NCBI GenBank assembly: GCA_025929465.1
Contig: JAICMC010000007.1
Span: 1 to 32,016, forward strand
From: Nostocoides sp.
GTDB taxonomy: Bacteria > Actinomycetota > Actinomycetes > Actinomycetales > Dermatophilaceae
Reading direction: 5' to 3'
Length of the DNA stretch: 32,016 nt
The stretch's first letter is position 1. Each line of letters opens with the position of its first letter. Position numbers and translations under genes: made by a program. The notes below the pieces were generated by a model, which worked only from the letters and a program-made list of their open reading frames with translations, was not told the DNA's origin and did no database searches. Below, one piece after another: positions 13,082 to 22,893 of this stretch.

Positions 13082-14596
13082 ATGGACATCGAGCTCGTCG
13101 GACGGATGATCTCCACGCTGCCCGACGACGACGACCACCCGTACCGGACGGGCGCGTGGCGGCCGCAGACGGCGGAGTGGGTCGCCGACGACCTCGACGT
13201 CGTCCGGGGCGCGATCCCGGCTGACCTCGACGGCATCTACCTGCGCAACACCGAGAACCCGCTGCACCCGGCCATCGCCGCCTACCACCCGTTCGACGGC
13301 GACGGGATGGTGCACGTCGTCGGCTTCCGCGACGGGACGGCGTTCTACCGCAACAGGTTCGTGCGCACCGACGGGCTCGCGGCCGAGACGGAGGCGCAGA
13401 TGTCGCTCTGGGCCGGCGTCTCCGAGCCGCCGAGCATCGCCATCCGGCAGGACGGGTGGGGGGCCCGCGGGGCGATGAAGGACGCGAGCTCGACCGACGT
13501 CGTCGTCCACCGCGGCAGGGCACTGACCAGCTTCTACCAGTGCGGCGACCTGTACCGGCTCGACCCCCGGACGGCGTGCACCCTGGGCAAGGAGGACTTC
13601 GCCGGCGCGTTCCCCGCCGAGGGAGTCTCGGCGCACCCCAAGGTCGACCCACGGACCGGCGAGCTGCTCTTCTTCAACTACTCCCGCGAGGCGCCGTACC
13701 TCCACTACGGCGTCGTCGACGAGGCCGGAGAGCTCGTGCACTACATCGACGTCCCGCTGCCCGGCCCGCGGATGCCGCACGACATGACCTACACCGAGCA
13801 CTACGCGGTCTTCGGCGACTTCCCGCTGTACTGGGACGTCGCGCCGATGGCGCAGGGCATCTTCGTCCCGCGCTTCCACCGCGACGTGCCGACCCGGTTC
13901 GGGGTCGTCCCGCGCCGCGGCAGTACGAGCGAGGTCCGCTGGTTCGAGAGCTCACCGACCTACGTCCTGCACTTCGTCAACGCCTACGAGGACGGCGACA
14001 CGATCGTCATCGACGGCTTCCACCAGGGCCAGCCCGAGCCGTCGGGGGTGGGCATCGGTGACAAGTGGCTGCGCGCGTTCCGCTACCTGTCACTGGACAA
14101 GATGCAGACCCGGCTGCACCGCTGGCGGCTCGACCTGCGCACCGGCGCCGTGACCGAGGAGCGGCTCAGCGAGACGTTCACCGAGTTCGGGATGCTCAAC
14201 CCCGACATCGTGACGACGCAGCACCGATACGCGTATGCCGCCTCAGCCGTCCCGGGCCGCTTCCTGTTCGACGGGCTGGTCAAGCACGACGTGCTCACCG
14301 GCGCACAGGAGCGAGTCGCCTACGGCGACGGGGTGTTCGGCAGCGAGACCACGATGGCCCCGCGGATCGGGAGCCCCGGTGAGGACGACGGGTACCTGAT
14401 CACCCTCGTGAGCGACCTCAACGCCGACGCCTCGTTCTGTCACGTGTATGCCGCGCAGGACCCGACCGCCGGGCCGGTCTGCGTCCTACGGCTGCCGGAG
14501 CGAGTCAGCAGCGGGACCCACTCGACCTGGGTCAGCGGTGCCGAGCTGGCGCGCTGGGACAAAACCGACACCGCGGCCCAGGCCGTCGGGCTCTGA
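13082..14596 (+). CDS. Carotenoid oxygenase (RPE65/CCD/lignostilbene dioxygenase family)
   Basis: IPADLDGIYLRNTENPLHPAIAAYHPFDGDGMVHVVGFRDGTAFYRNRFVRT; MPHDMTYTEHYAVFGDFPL; terminal SGTHSTWV with predicted iron-ligand histidines. Confidence 0.92.
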   Translation: MDIELVGRMISTLPDDDDHPYRTGAWRPQTAEWVADDLDVVRGAIPADLDGIYLRNTENPLHPAIAAYHPFDGDGMVHVVGFRDGTAFYRNRFVRTDGLAAETEAQMSLWAGVSEPPSIAIRQDGWGARGAMKDASSTDVVVHRGRALTSFYQCGDLYRLDPRTACTLGKEDFAGAFPAEGVSAHPKVDPRTGELLFFNYSREAPYLHYGVVDEAGELVHYIDVPLPGPRMPHDMTYTEHYAVFGDFPLYWDVAPMAQGIFVPRFHRDVPTRFGVVPRRGSTSEVRWFESSPTYVLHFVNAYEDGDTIVIDGFHQGQPEPSGVGIGDKWLRAFRYLSLDKMQTRLHRWRLDLRTGAVTEERLSETFTEFGMLNPDIVTTQHRYAYAASAVPGRFLFDGLVKHDVLTGAQERVAYGDGVFGSETTMAPRIGSPGEDDGYLITLVSDLNADASFCHVYAAQDPTAGPVCVLRLPERVSSGTHSTWVSGAELARWDKTDTAAQAVGL

Positions 14597-16368: not shown

Positions 16369-17874
16369 GTGACCGCGCCGCTTGCCACGTCGCCTCGCCG
16401 TGCACCTCGCCGGCTTCCGGTCCCGTGGCCGGTGCTGCTCGTGGCGGGCCTCATGCTGGTCCTGCTGCTTGCCGTGTCCGGCGCGTACGGCTTCCACGGA
16501 GACGAGATGTACTACGTCGTCGCCGGACGACACCCGGCCTTCGGTTACGTCGACCAGCCGCCGCTCACCCCCCTCCTCTCCGCCGGGTCGGTCGCCGTCC
16601 TCGGCGTGACAGCCACAGCGGTGCGCGTACTGCCCGCCCTGGAGATGGCGGTCATCGTCGTTCTCGTCGGGCTCACGGCTGGTGACCTCGGCGGCTCCCG
16701 CCGGGCCCAGGTGCTGGCCGCCGTCACCGCCGCCCTGTCCGGCTACCTCGGCGCCGGTCACCTGGACACCACCACCGACGCCGACCTGCTCGCGTGGGCG
16801 GTCATCGTCTGGCTCGTCGTGAAGCTGCTTGCCGGCGGTGACCGGCGGCTGTGGCTGGCCGTCGGCGGCACCGCGGGGATCGGGTTGGAGAACAAGGACA
16901 CGCTGCTCTTCCTCGCCGCGGGCCTGGCCGTCGGGCTGGTCGTCTCCCGTCGGTGGGACGTCATCGGCTCCCCCTGGGCGTGGGCTGCGCCGGCCATCGC
17001 GCTCCTCCTCTGGGCCCCCAACCTCGTCTGGGAGCAGCGCAACGGGTGGCCGCAGCTCATCATGGCAGCCCAGATCGCCGGGTATGCCGCCGACAACCGC
17101 GCGCAGATCCTGCCCCTGCTCTGGCTGTTCACCGGCCCGCTCCTCTTCCCGGTCAGCGCCGCGGGGCTGGTCTGGGTGCTGTGCTCGAAGGCGGCCAGGC
17201 CGTGGCGTCCGATCGGGGTGGCCAGCGTCGTCGCGCTGGCGCTGGTCGTCGTCACCGGCGGCAAGGCCTACTACGCGATCGGTACCGCCCCGCTCCTCAT
17301 GGCGGCCGGGGCGACCGTGACGGACCGATGGCTGGCGCGGGGACATCGCCGCATCAGGCTCGCAGGGTTCGGCACAGCCGCGGTGCTCTCCGGCATCGTC
17401 GTCACGTTCCTCACCCTGCCGATCCTCCCGCTCGCGGCCTACGCACGCAGCGGCCTCCCCGCCGCGGTGCCGGACACCGCCGACCAGGTCGGCTGGCCGC
17501 AGTTCGTCGCCACCGTGACACGTGTGGTCACCGCCCTGCCCCCGTCCGAGCGAGACCGGGCGGTGATCCTCGGCGATGACTACAGCGAGGCCAGCCCGCT
17601 CGTCCTCCTGGACGCGGGCCTTCCGCCGGTCTACTCGGGACACAACGCCTACTGGGACTGGGGACCTCCGCCCACCTCTCGGACGGTCGTCGTGCACGTC
17701 GGGGACTGGCGACCGACCGACTGGTCCCGGTTCTTCGTCGGCTGCCACGACGTGGCCCACATCGACAACGGGTTCGGGATCGACAACGCCGAGCAGGGCA
17801 AGGCCATCTCGGTCTGCACCGGCCTGCGCGAGCCGTGGCGCGCGATCTGGCCGGCGCTTCGCACGATCAGCTGA
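16369..17874 (+). CDS. GT39/ArnT-like membrane glycosyltransferase
   Basis: GTG start 7 nt after previous stop; GAYGFHGDEMYYVVAGRHPAFGYVDQPPLTPLLS motif (acidic residue after first TM) and many TM helices. Confidence 0.85.
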   Translation: MTAPLATSPRRAPRRLPVPWPVLLVAGLMLVLLLAVSGAYGFHGDEMYYVVAGRHPAFGYVDQPPLTPLLSAGSVAVLGVTATAVRVLPALEMAVIVVLVGLTAGDLGGSRRAQVLAAVTAALSGYLGAGHLDTTTDADLLAWAVIVWLVVKLLAGGDRRLWLAVGGTAGIGLENKDTLLFLAAGLAVGLVVSRRWDVIGSPWAWAAPAIALLLWAPNLVWEQRNGWPQLIMAAQIAGYAADNRAQILPLLWLFTGPLLFPVSAAGLVWVLCSKAARPWRPIGVASVVALALVVVTGGKAYYAIGTAPLLMAAGATVTDRWLARGHRRIRLAGFGTAAVLSGIVVTFLTLPILPLAAYARSGLPAAVPDTADQVGWPQFVATVTRVVTALPPSERDRAVILGDDYSEASPLVLLDAGLPPVYSGHNAYWDWGPPPTSRTVVVHVGDWRPTDWSRFFVGCHDVAHIDNGFGIDNAEQGKAISVCTGLREPWRAIWPALRTIS

Positions 17875-17878
17875 GACC

Positions 17879-17975
17879 GGCCGCTACCGGCGGCTTCCGG
17901 AGCCCACCCACCTGACCGAGCCGGGAGGCCGCTACCGCCCGGCCTCCCGAGCCCACCCACCTGACCGAGCCGGGA
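17879..17975 (+). repeat. Two ~48-bp imperfect direct repeats
   Basis: GGCCGCTACCGgcggcttccGGAGCCCACCCACCTGACCGAGCCGGGA (17879-) and GGCCGCTACCGcccggcctcCCGAGCCCACCCACCTGACCGAGCCGGGA (17927-17975). Confidence 0.9.
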
Positions 17976-18127
17976 CTGAACACCCGACACGCGGCATACG
18001 GCGGGGTGCCGTTTCGCGAAATGCCGCGTGTCGGGTGTTCAGTCGGCCGGGCGGGGCGCGGGTGCCGCATGTCGGGTGTTCAGTCGCCCGGGCGGGGTGC
18101 GGGATGCCGCGTGTCGGGTGTTCAGTC
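17974..18127. repeat. 24-bp repeat unit in one inverted and three direct copies (41-42-bp period)
   Basis: GACTGAACACCCGACACGCGGCAT at 17974-17997; reverse complement ATGCCGCGTGTCGGGTGTTCAGTC at 18021-18044 and 18104-18127 (perfect) and 18062-18085 (two mismatches); the intervening ~17-bp GGCCGGGCGGGGTGCGG blocks are nearly identical to each other. Confidence 0.95.
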
Positions 18128-18148
18128 GGCCGGGCGGGGTGCGGATCC

Positions 18149-18180
18149 CGTATGCCGGGGTGCGGGGGATGCGGCATACG
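18149..18180. repeat. Inverted pair CGTATGCCG ... CGGCATACG just upstream of gabT
   Basis: 9-bp perfect arms at 18149-18157 and 18172-18180, 14-nt loop. Confidence 0.85.
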
Positions 18181-18182
18181 CT
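18177..18182 (+). promoter_or_regulatory. Candidate -10 element (TACGCT) for leaderless gabT
   Basis: TANNNT hexamer 7 nt before ATG at 18190; no Shine-Dalgarno visible. Confidence 0.45.
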
Positions 18183-18189
18183 CTGCACC

Positions 18190-19533
18190 ATGAGCAGCAT
18201 CGAGCAGAAGCGCGTCCTGGCCACCGCGATCCCCGGCCCGAAGAGCCAGGCCCTCCACGAGCGCAAGGTGGCAGCGGTGTCCGCGGGTGTCGGTGTGGGC
18301 CTGCCCGTCTACGTCGAGCGGGCCGGCGGCGGCATCCTCGTCGACGTCGACGGCAACCAGCTCATCGACTTCGGCTCCGGGATCGCCGTCACCACCGTCG
18401 GCAACGCCGCGCCCCGGGTCGTCGAGCGGGTGCAGCAGCAGGTGGCCGACTTCACCCACACCTGCTTCATGGTCACGCCGTATGCCGAGTACCTCCAGGT
18501 CGCGGAGGCACTCAACGAGCTGACCCCCGGCGACCACGAGAAGCGCAGCGCCCTGTTCAACTCCGGCGCGGAGGCGGTCGAGAACGCCGTCAAGATCGCG
18601 CGCTACTTCACCGGCCGGCAGGCGGTCGTCGCGTTCGACCACGCCTACCACGGGCGGACCAACCTGACGATGGGCCTCACCGCCAAGAACATGCCGTACA
18701 AGCACAAGTTCGGCCCCTTCGCGGGGGAGATCTACCGGGCCCCCATGAGCTATCCGTTCCGCTGGCCGGGCGGGCCGGCCGACTGCGCCAAGGAGTCCTT
18801 CGACGTCTTCACCTCGATGGTCCATGCGCAGGTCGGCGAGGACAACGTGGCGGCCGTCATCATCGAGCCGATCCAGGGCGAGGGCGGCTTCATCGTCCCC
18901 GCCCCCGGCTTCCTCGCCCAGGTGAGCGAGTGGTGCACGGCCCACGGGATCCTGCTCATCGCCGACGAGGTCCAGACGGGGTTCTGCCGCACGGGGGACT
19001 GGTTCGCGTGCGACTTCGAGCAGGTCGTCCCCGACCTGATCACGACGGCCAAGGGGATGGCCGGCGGCCTGCCGCTCGCCGGGGTCACCGGGCGCGCCGA
19101 GGTCATGGACGCCGTCCACGGCAGCGGCCTCGGCGGCACCTACGGGGGCAACCCGGTCGCCTGCGCTGCCGCGGTGGGCGCCATCGAGACGATGAGGGAG
19201 GAGGACCTGTGTGCCCGGGCCAAGCAGGTCGAGTCCCTGTTCCTCGGTCGGCTGCACGCCCTCGCGGACCGGTTCCCCCAGATCGGCGACATCCGCGGAC
19301 GCGGAGCGATGTTGGCCATCGAGCTGGTCAACGGTGCCGGGGACCTCACCCCCAACGCGGCGCTGACCGCGGCGGTCAACACGGCGTGCCACGCCCAGGG
19401 CCTGGTCACCCTCACCTGCGGCACCTACGGCAACGTGTTCCGGTTCCTCCCGCCGCTGGTCGCGTCCGACGAGCTGCTGACCGAGGGGCTGGACCTCTTC
19501 GAGGCGGAGTTCGTCCGGGCCGCCTCAGCGTGA
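18190..19533 (+). CDS. gabT: 4-aminobutyrate aminotransferase (class III PLP aminotransferase)
   Basis: MSSIEQKRVLATAIPGPKSQALHERK; LIDFGSGIAVTTVGN; LLIADEVQTGFCRTGDWFACDF; TTAKGMAGGLPLAGVTGRAE PLP lysine motif. Confidence 0.93.
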   Translation: MSSIEQKRVLATAIPGPKSQALHERKVAAVSAGVGVGLPVYVERAGGGILVDVDGNQLIDFGSGIAVTTVGNAAPRVVERVQQQVADFTHTCFMVTPYAEYLQVAEALNELTPGDHEKRSALFNSGAEAVENAVKIARYFTGRQAVVAFDHAYHGRTNLTMGLTAKNMPYKHKFGPFAGEIYRAPMSYPFRWPGGPADCAKESFDVFTSMVHAQVGEDNVAAVIIEPIQGEGGFIVPAPGFLAQVSEWCTAHGILLIADEVQTGFCRTGDWFACDFEQVVPDLITTAKGMAGGLPLAGVTGRAEVMDAVHGSGLGGTYGGNPVACAAAVGAIETMREEDLCARAKQVESLFLGRLHALADRFPQIGDIRGRGAMLAIELVNGAGDLTPNAALTAAVNTACHAQGLVTLTCGTYGNVFRFLPPLVASDELLTEGLDLFEAEFVRAASA

Positions 19534-21309: not shown

Positions 21310-22893
21310 GTGACTGACAACTCAACGGGGCCCGCCTCCTCGGGCAACACCCAGATCGACGAGATCACCAAGGGCTACGCCTTCGAGGGGGCGGCGCTGG
21401 AGTTCGGGGCGGCCGTCGTGGACAAGACGGCATACCCCTCCGCCACGGTGCGGATCCCGCTGGAGGTGCTCAACCGGCACGGGCTGGTGGCCGGCGCCAC
21501 CGGCACCGGCAAGACCAAGACGCTCCAGCTGATGGCCGAGCAGCTCTCGCGGGCCGGCGTCCCGACGTTCCTCGCCGACGTCAAGGGCGACCTGTCGGGC
21601 ATCGCGACGCCGGGCACGAGCAACGACAAGATCGCGGCCCGTGCCAAGGACATCGGTGAGGACTGGACCGCCTCGGCGTTCCCGACCGAGTTCTACGCCC
21701 TCGGCGGCCTCGGCAACGGCGTCCCGGTGCGCTCGACGGTCACCTCGTTCGGCCCGACCCTGCTGGCCAAGGTGCTCGGCCTCAACGACACCCAGGAGTC
21801 CTGTCTCGGCCTGGTCTTCCACTACGCCGACGCCAAGGGCCTGTCACTGCTCGACCTGAAGGACCTGCGAGCCGTCGTGCAGTACCTCACCTCCAAGGAC
21901 GGCAAGGAGGACCTGGTGGACCTCGGCGGCCTGTCCGCCGCGACGGCCGGCGTCATCCTGCGTGAGCTGGTCACGTTCTCCGACCAGGGTGCCGACGTCT
22001 TCTTCGGCGAGCCCGAGTTCGACACGAGCGCCCTGCTGCGGACCGCATCGGACGGCCGGGGCATCGTCTCCTGCCTGGAGCTGCCGGCGGTTCAGGACAA
22101 GCCGGCGCTGTTCTCGACCTTCCTCATGTGGCTGCTCGCCGACCTGTTCCACGACCTGCCCGAGGTCGGCGACCTCGACAAGCCCAAGCTCGTCTTCTTC
22201 TTCGACGAGGCGCACCTGCTCTTCGACGGCGCGTCCAAGGACTTCCTCACCGCGATCGAGCAGACCGTCCGGCTGATCCGGTCCAAGGGCGTCGGCATCT
22301 TCTTCGTCACCCAGTCGCCCAAGGACGTGCCCGGCAACGTCCTGGCCCAGCTGTCCAACCGGGTCCAGCACGCCCTGCGCGCCTTCACCCCCGACGACGC
22401 CAAGGCCCTCAAGGCGGCCGTCTCCACCTACCCGAAGTCCGGCTACGACCTGCAGGAGCTGCTCACCTCCCTCGGGATCGGGGAGGCCGTCATCACCGTG
22501 CTCTCCGAGACCGGCGCTCCGACGCCCGTGGCGTGGACCCGGATGCGCGCGCCGGAGTCGCTCATGGCGCCGTCGACCGACGACACGATCAAGGCGGTCA
22601 TCAACGCCTCCCCGCTCAACGCGACCTACGGCACGGCGGTCGACCGCGAGTCGGCATACGAGATGCTCAACGCACGGTTGAAGGCCGCACCGGCTCCGGC
22701 ACCGGCTCCGCAGGCGCCGCCTCCGCCGTCGGCCGCGCCGCGACCGTCGGGGCGGGCGCCCAAGGAGCAGCCGAGCATGGTCGAGCAGGTCGTCCAGAGC
22801 AGCGCGTTCAAGTCGATGCTCCGCTCCGCCGGGACCGTCGTCGGCCGCGAGATCACCCGGTCGATCTTCGGCACCGCCGCCCGCCGGCGCTGA
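21310..22893 (+). CDS. DUF853 / HerA-like C-terminal ATPase (YjgR family)
   Basis: HGLVAGATGTGKTKTLQLMAEQLSRAGVPTFLADVKGDLSG Walker A; KLVFFFDEAHLLF Walker B; Pro-rich linker near C-terminus. Confidence 0.93.
   Translation: MTDNSTGPASSGNTQIDEITKGYAFEGAALEFGAAVVDKTAYPSATVRIPLEVLNRHGLVAGATGTGKTKTLQLMAEQLSRAGVPTFLADVKGDLSGIATPGTSNDKIAARAKDIGEDWTASAFPTEFYALGGLGNGVPVRSTVTSFGPTLLAKVLGLNDTQESCLGLVFHYADAKGLSLLDLKDLRAVVQYLTSKDGKEDLVDLGGLSAATAGVILRELVTFSDQGADVFFGEPEFDTSALLRTASDGRGIVSCLELPAVQDKPALFSTFLMWLLADLFHDLPEVGDLDKPKLVFFFDEAHLLFDGASKDFLTAIEQTVRLIRSKGVGIFFVTQSPKDVPGNVLAQLSNRVQHALRAFTPDDAKALKAAVSTYPKSGYDLQELLTSLGIGEAVITVLSETGAPTPVAWTRMRAPESLMAPSTDDTIKAVINASPLNATYGTAVDRESAYEMLNARLKAAPAPAPAPQAPPPPSAAPRPSGRAPKEQPSMVEQVVQSSAFKSMLRSAGTVVGREITRSIFGTAARRR

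Follow-up and report, generated by a model that had tools for sequence, protein, structure and literature searches.

Between the gene for a GT39-like glycosyltransferase and a gabT-like gene, the window (the whole stretch of Nostocoides sp. DNA analysed, 32,016 nucleotides) carries an island of direct and inverted repeats. Its presence raises the question of what kind of element the island represents, whether it recurs elsewhere, and which protein is associated with it.

The repeat island upstream of gabT

The island starts 5 nt past the stop codon of the GT39-like gene and, with its two neighbours, comprises the following features:

16369-17874, plus strand: GT39/PMT_2-like glycosyltransferase gene, the upstream neighbour (ORF; Pfam PMT_2, E=6e-18)
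17879-17975, plus strand: two 49-bp direct repeats, duplicated flanking DNA beside the palindrome (TRF period 49, 2.0 copies, 91% matches)
17974-18044, no strand: 71-bp palindrome with perfect 24-bp arms and a 23-nt loop, an intact unit of a dispersed family (repeat search; covariance-model matches on both strands, E about 1e-16)
18063-18085, plus strand: additional forward half-site (arm) in an array of 41-42-bp period (repeat search and TRF)
18105-18127, plus strand: additional forward half-site (arm) in the same 41-42-bp period array (repeat search and TRF)
18150-18180 (18150-18158 / 18172-18180), no strand: 9-bp inverted pair CGTATGCCG...CGGCATACG, about 10 nt upstream of the gabT ATG (sequence)
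18178-18183, plus strand: TACGCT, candidate -10 element, overlapping the last inverted pair (sequence)
18190-19533, plus strand: gabT-like class-III aminotransferase gene, the downstream neighbour (Aminotran_3, E=3e-126)

The direct repeats are 94% identical across a 36-nt core; an earlier note on this DNA had placed and counted them correctly, their length being 49 bp instead of the about 48 bp that it gave. The perfect 24-bp inverted repeat described there, with its 23-nt loop, is borne out by arms (17974-17997 / 18021-18044) that are 100% complementary, and the two further forward copies are found at 18063 and 18105, with spacings of 41 and 42 bp. The island is not a CRISPR array, as the same note had argued: the blocks between units are conserved, and near-identical units recur with a 41/42-bp period. 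The island is no chance feature: only two palindromes in the 32-kb window score >=12, that of the island being far stronger. Blastn of the window region against plasmids gave no match. Elsewhere in the window, at 13082-14596, a gene resembling RPE65-family carotenoid oxygenases adjoins a gene for an AMP-binding enzyme.

The inverted pair CGTATGCCG/CGGCATACG, also rightly located beside the gabT start by the first reading, resembles the inner stem of the family (inner-arm consensus GGCATAC/GTATGCC) and, judging from this likeness, is probably a decayed family unit. The gabT-like ORF is open from 18028 and its likely start is the ATG at 18190. The actinobacterial -10 consensus is TANNNT; with the candidate element TACGCT, transcription would begin at the gabT ATG itself, making gabT a candidate leaderless gene. 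Within 18150-18190, this candidate -10 is overlapped by the last inverted pair, and the edge of the array may thus affect gabT expression.

A dispersed family of 71-bp palindromes

The MAG that contains the window comprises 2.5 Mb and is 73% complete. The 16-nt core of the unit occurs in it at 43 places with <=2 mismatches, against 0 for a reversed control pattern, and the covariance model identifies some 34 different 71-bp dyads, distributed over about 18 contigs; this count is a minimum, because several copies lie at contig ends. Copy number and location, on which the earlier note had made its reading depend, thus come out in its favour: the locus is not single-copy, most loci of the family are intergenic, and related hairpins occur in other genera. 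The recurring unit is the 71-bp dyad with a 48-bp arm spacing, rather than the 24-mer; all listed pairs of the MAG show this spacing but two, one of 47 bp and one of 55 bp at L074, the latter an overlapping second call. The copies have their arms in common, while the 25-nt loop is variable; alternating -48/+35 arrays are found at L070, L076 and L078, and the window has direct arrays of 41 bp. With its many extragenic, palindromic copies, often set in arrays of alternating orientation, the family is of the non-autonomous REP/BIME-like type that had been proposed.

The arms of the MAG family are less complementary to each other than shuffled arms, which indicates stem pairing without clear selection in this MAG; sequence-specific half-sites are here favoured over a conserved stem. 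A mini-hairpin inside the half-site (arm positions 12/20) was rejected, as no covariation supports it. No consistent GTAG or CGTC tag is present at the unit foot in the family alignments; Rfam RNA families gave sub-threshold hairpin matches only, mainly to microRNA precursors, and a search for the exact 16-mer in 257 Gb of other genomes (GTDB contigs) returned 35 single, chance-like matches.

Neither the 16-mer nor the covariance model matches two genomes of the same genus. Other genera of the Dermatophilaceae possess 71-bp hairpins with the common ends GACCGRACAC...GTGTYCGGTC; these 10-bp ends are common across genera, whereas the inner stems are genome-specific. The 100%-complete genome G063 contains 26 copies of the hairpin, and in their alignment 103 two-sided compensatory cells are observed versus 43 in shuffles (0/500 shuffles). 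The stems of G063 stay paired through compensatory change.

The hairpins are extragenic, intergenic at most loci, and mostly downstream of genes, usually 4-50 bp from the stop codon and in many cases between convergent genes. In 0.8 Mb, 8 are convergent, 12 co-directional and 0 divergent, against a background in which 157/755 gene gaps are divergent. These positions, and the maintenance of the G063 stems by compensatory change, would fit bidirectional terminators kept against read-through, their likeness in sequence arising through local duplication. Termination, on the other hand, needs no common 10-bp end motif, fixed 71-bp span or genome-specific families; moreover, no T-tracts were seen and the window copy sits ahead of a co-directional gene, and this explanation is considered unlikely. 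As for traces of movement, no empty/filled site pair was found, the 0.4 Mb compared in the same-genus genome G001 holding no informative locus, and transposases are absent from the top recurrent Pfam families of the flanking genes.

The gene bracketed by palindromes

A partner gene was first spotted by reading the genes that flank palindromes in G063 and G066. It is bracketed by hairpins in these two genomes, in G080, in G106 and in the present MAG, where it is located as follows:

Contig C1, 492-1490, minus strand: AbiEi-nuclease-like gene with hairpins on both sides (homologue)

Arrays of the hairpin family found in the window enclose this gene at a distance of about 80-120 bp. The N-terminal half of the protein is AbiEi-like, with a winged helix and an AbiEi region (PADLOC AbiEi models to E=1.6e-18; Pfam AbiEi_4). 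The C-terminus gives weak matches to Pfam DUF559 (E 7e-4 to 0.08) and a marginal match to PDB 3HRL (E=0.015); the alignment of homologues displays invariant D235, E246xD248G..K252 and E268 (D / ExDG..K / E), and this part is weakly predicted to be a DUF559/PD-(D/E)XK-like nuclease domain. The palindromes lie about 0.1 kb from each end of the gene, thus leaving no room between them for an AbiEii toxin gene.

The bracketed genes of G063 and G066 occupy the same orthologous locus, their neighbours being orthologous; thus, the two cases represent one inherited event, and separate insertions of the partner into each genome are ruled out. At L169 and L109/L163, in two genera, the same orthologous neighbours flank the partner, one encoding a holin-like membrane protein and the other a PaaN-like aldehyde dehydrogenase (names by eye); this conserved setting indicates that both palindromes persisted while their inner stems changed.

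Two more AbiEi-nuclease homologues are present in the MAG, L198 (G000:C170, match 1501-1935) and G000:C154:3621-4580, the former with a different palindrome, TCTCTTGCGTTTATCGGG..., on one side. G063 possesses a second gene/family pair, whose palindrome CTTTGCGCAAG is both gene-bracketing and dispersed. Stretches of G063:C3 and C2 (L258-L277) contain more dispersed palindrome families, CCGCCGAGAGGGACGTT... and CCGAGYGGGACGTT..., which may belong to other AbiEi-nuclease paralogues, and palindromes with GTTTCACGTGAAAC at G063:C3:20915-20944 and 21864-21953 (L259) are parS-like sites.

Among 29 homologues in 11 genomes, palindromes flank both sides of 16, and in 14/16 the two partners are best matches. 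A homologue search throughout the Actinomycetota added 30 loci; overall, 23/54 homologue genes have similar palindromes on both sides versus 0/2161 control segments, and a recognisable similar two-sided pair is absent in the other 31/54. Similarity within pairs is 19-72, whereas the mean between loci is 7-9 for most of them; these palindrome comparisons refer to the sampled genomes and to a simple palindrome score. Only one protein clade (support 96/90; 1 change vs 4.6 shuffled) has the end motif CCGRACAC, the G106 pair having slightly different ends (variant TTCCRAACAC), and protein similarity shows a modest correlation with palindrome similarity (Mantel r=0.24, P=0.002). The relationship extends to the dispersed copies, since in five genomes 35/46 have their best match, by inner stem alone, in the gene-bracketing palindromes of their own genome. 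An unbiased scan of 1.2 Mb retrieved only three pairs of similar palindromes 0.5-2 kb apart: two of these have a homologue inside, and the third is parS-like. Of the two, one lies at the G063 locus described above, and the second surrounds a gene of G586 that was among the matches of the phylum search, its flanks being first examined through the scan. Palindrome families are homologue-specific, and the end motif tracks the protein clade. Terminators that merely insulate the partner gene on both sides would need neither matched pairs around one protein family nor such a clade-tracking motif.

A regulatory role has also to be weighed. Both AbiEi and Rv2827c bind their own promoters at paired inverted repeats of 23 bp (PMC7319586), the family arms measure about 23 bp, and one palindrome is usually upstream of the partner gene; the palindromes could then be operator sites of an AbiEi-like autoregulator, and the dispersed copies its regulon. 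However, the downstream copy of each pair and the dispersed copies at 3' or convergent positions misfit promoter operators, and the arms are spaced 48 bp apart where AbiEi repeats have a 3-bp gap; this possibility is regarded as quite improbable.

Matched palindromes at both gene ends, and single dispersed copies of equal size, would also be expected if the palindromes were the ends of an IS-like unit carrying the AbiEi-nuclease gene and the dispersed copies its internally deleted, MITE-like remnants. Conversely, one gene per palindrome family was observed, syntenic between two genera; no target-site duplication is evident in flanks read by eye, and limited searches found no partner homologue on plasmids, phages or viral contigs. 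Such an origin is regarded as very unlikely.

Still less probable is a classical REP/BIME system whose mobilising RAYT happens to fall outside the incomplete MAG. The form is alike (extragenic and palindromic units, alternating arrays, hairpin dimers), and the MAG is only 73% complete; yet Y1_Tnp is absent both from this MAG (G000) and from the complete genomes G063, G043, G125 and G159, the units bear no consistent GTAG/CGTC tag, and the palindromes bracket a different gene. In particular, the reading is weakened by G063, which is complete and palindrome-rich and lacks Y1_Tnp. The association with a REP-associated tyrosine transposase envisaged in the earlier note is therefore not seen, neither in the MAG nor in G063 with its 26 copies.

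Proposed mechanism and relation to known systems

The island appears, with fair likelihood, to be one locus of a REPIN-like dispersed family of 71-bp palindromes tied to a non-RAYT partner gene. This reading joins the family and its fixed geometry, the compensatory pairing in G063, the gene bracketing, the match within pairs and the tracking of the protein clade by the end motif to binding, cutting and mobility that would be due to the partner system. The AbiEi-like part would recognise the inverted arrangement of the two conserved arms (10-23 bp), which is plausible given the binding of AbiEi proteins to paired 23-bp inverted repeats (PMC7319586). The substrate of the nuclease-like part would be the palindrome, in paired or extruded form, or a target; repair would then copy palindromes into intergenic sites, followed by local amplification into arrays. 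The tolerated sites would be those where the palindromes are observed, downstream of genes and often between convergent genes, and hairpins at these sites may double as two-way terminators or mRNA-end structures.

More tentatively, and with a chance somewhat short of even, a phylum-wide palindrome-nuclease class may exist, in which each AbiEi-PD-(D/E)XK fusion would recognise and propagate its own palindromes of roughly 45-80 bp, with several orthogonal families per genome (at least two in G063). No description of this palindrome/AbiEi-nuclease pairing was found in the open PMC literature, absence there not being proof.

REP-like palindromes occur in many genomes that have no recognisable RAYT, which raises the question of how they spread. 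Should AbiEi-nuclease fusions prove to be the partner in Actinomycetota, REP-like spread becomes testable with one protein and its own palindrome; a role would also be provided for genes that are currently taken for orphan AbiEi antitoxins and that phage-defence models match, and the arrangement of a hairpin plus a bracketed low-copy gene would have arisen more than once. If the phylum-wide class is real, it would constitute a RAYT-independent route to REP-like repeats, or else a homing-like or chromosome-marking system.

Several known systems share features with the one described here. MITEs and IS-derived miniature elements are likewise short, inverted-repeat, non-autonomous and multi-copy, but for the present family no transposase parent and no target-site duplication were recognised (flanks read by eye). 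AbiE type IV toxin-antitoxin systems are bicistronic operons with a DUF1814 AbiEii toxin. The N-terminal half of the partner matches their antitoxin AbiEi; differently from AbiE, the partner has an extra C-terminal nuclease-like domain, there is no space for the toxin gene inside the palindromes, and these occur on both sides of the gene as well as scattered elsewhere. With the DUF559 / REase_MTES_1575 Vsr-like endonucleases (PDB 3HRL) the C-terminal domain has in common the invariant D, ExDG..K and E, although the profile similarity is weak and the domain is fused to an AbiEi-like part.

The closest resemblance is to REP/REPIN-BIME sequences and their RAYT (TnpA-REP, PF01797): both consist of dispersed extragenic palindromes, hairpin-forming inverted doublets and alternating arrays, positioned 3' of genes and between convergent genes. 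RAYT genes are low-copy and bracketed by REPs (PMC2817692, PMC3733652); similarly, a low-copy, apparently inherited gene is here flanked by a pair of its own palindromes, which also occur in many free copies at other sites. The difference lies in the partner, AbiEi plus a DUF559/PD-(D/E)XK-like domain instead of an HUH tyrosine transposase, and in the unit, a fixed 71-bp dyad with no consistent GTAG/CGTC tag, in a setting where complete G063 has no Y1_Tnp. Thus, the form is REP/BIME-like, while partner and tag place the family outside the RAYT-REP systems, and it looks like a second kind of system made of a REP palindrome plus a partner enzyme.
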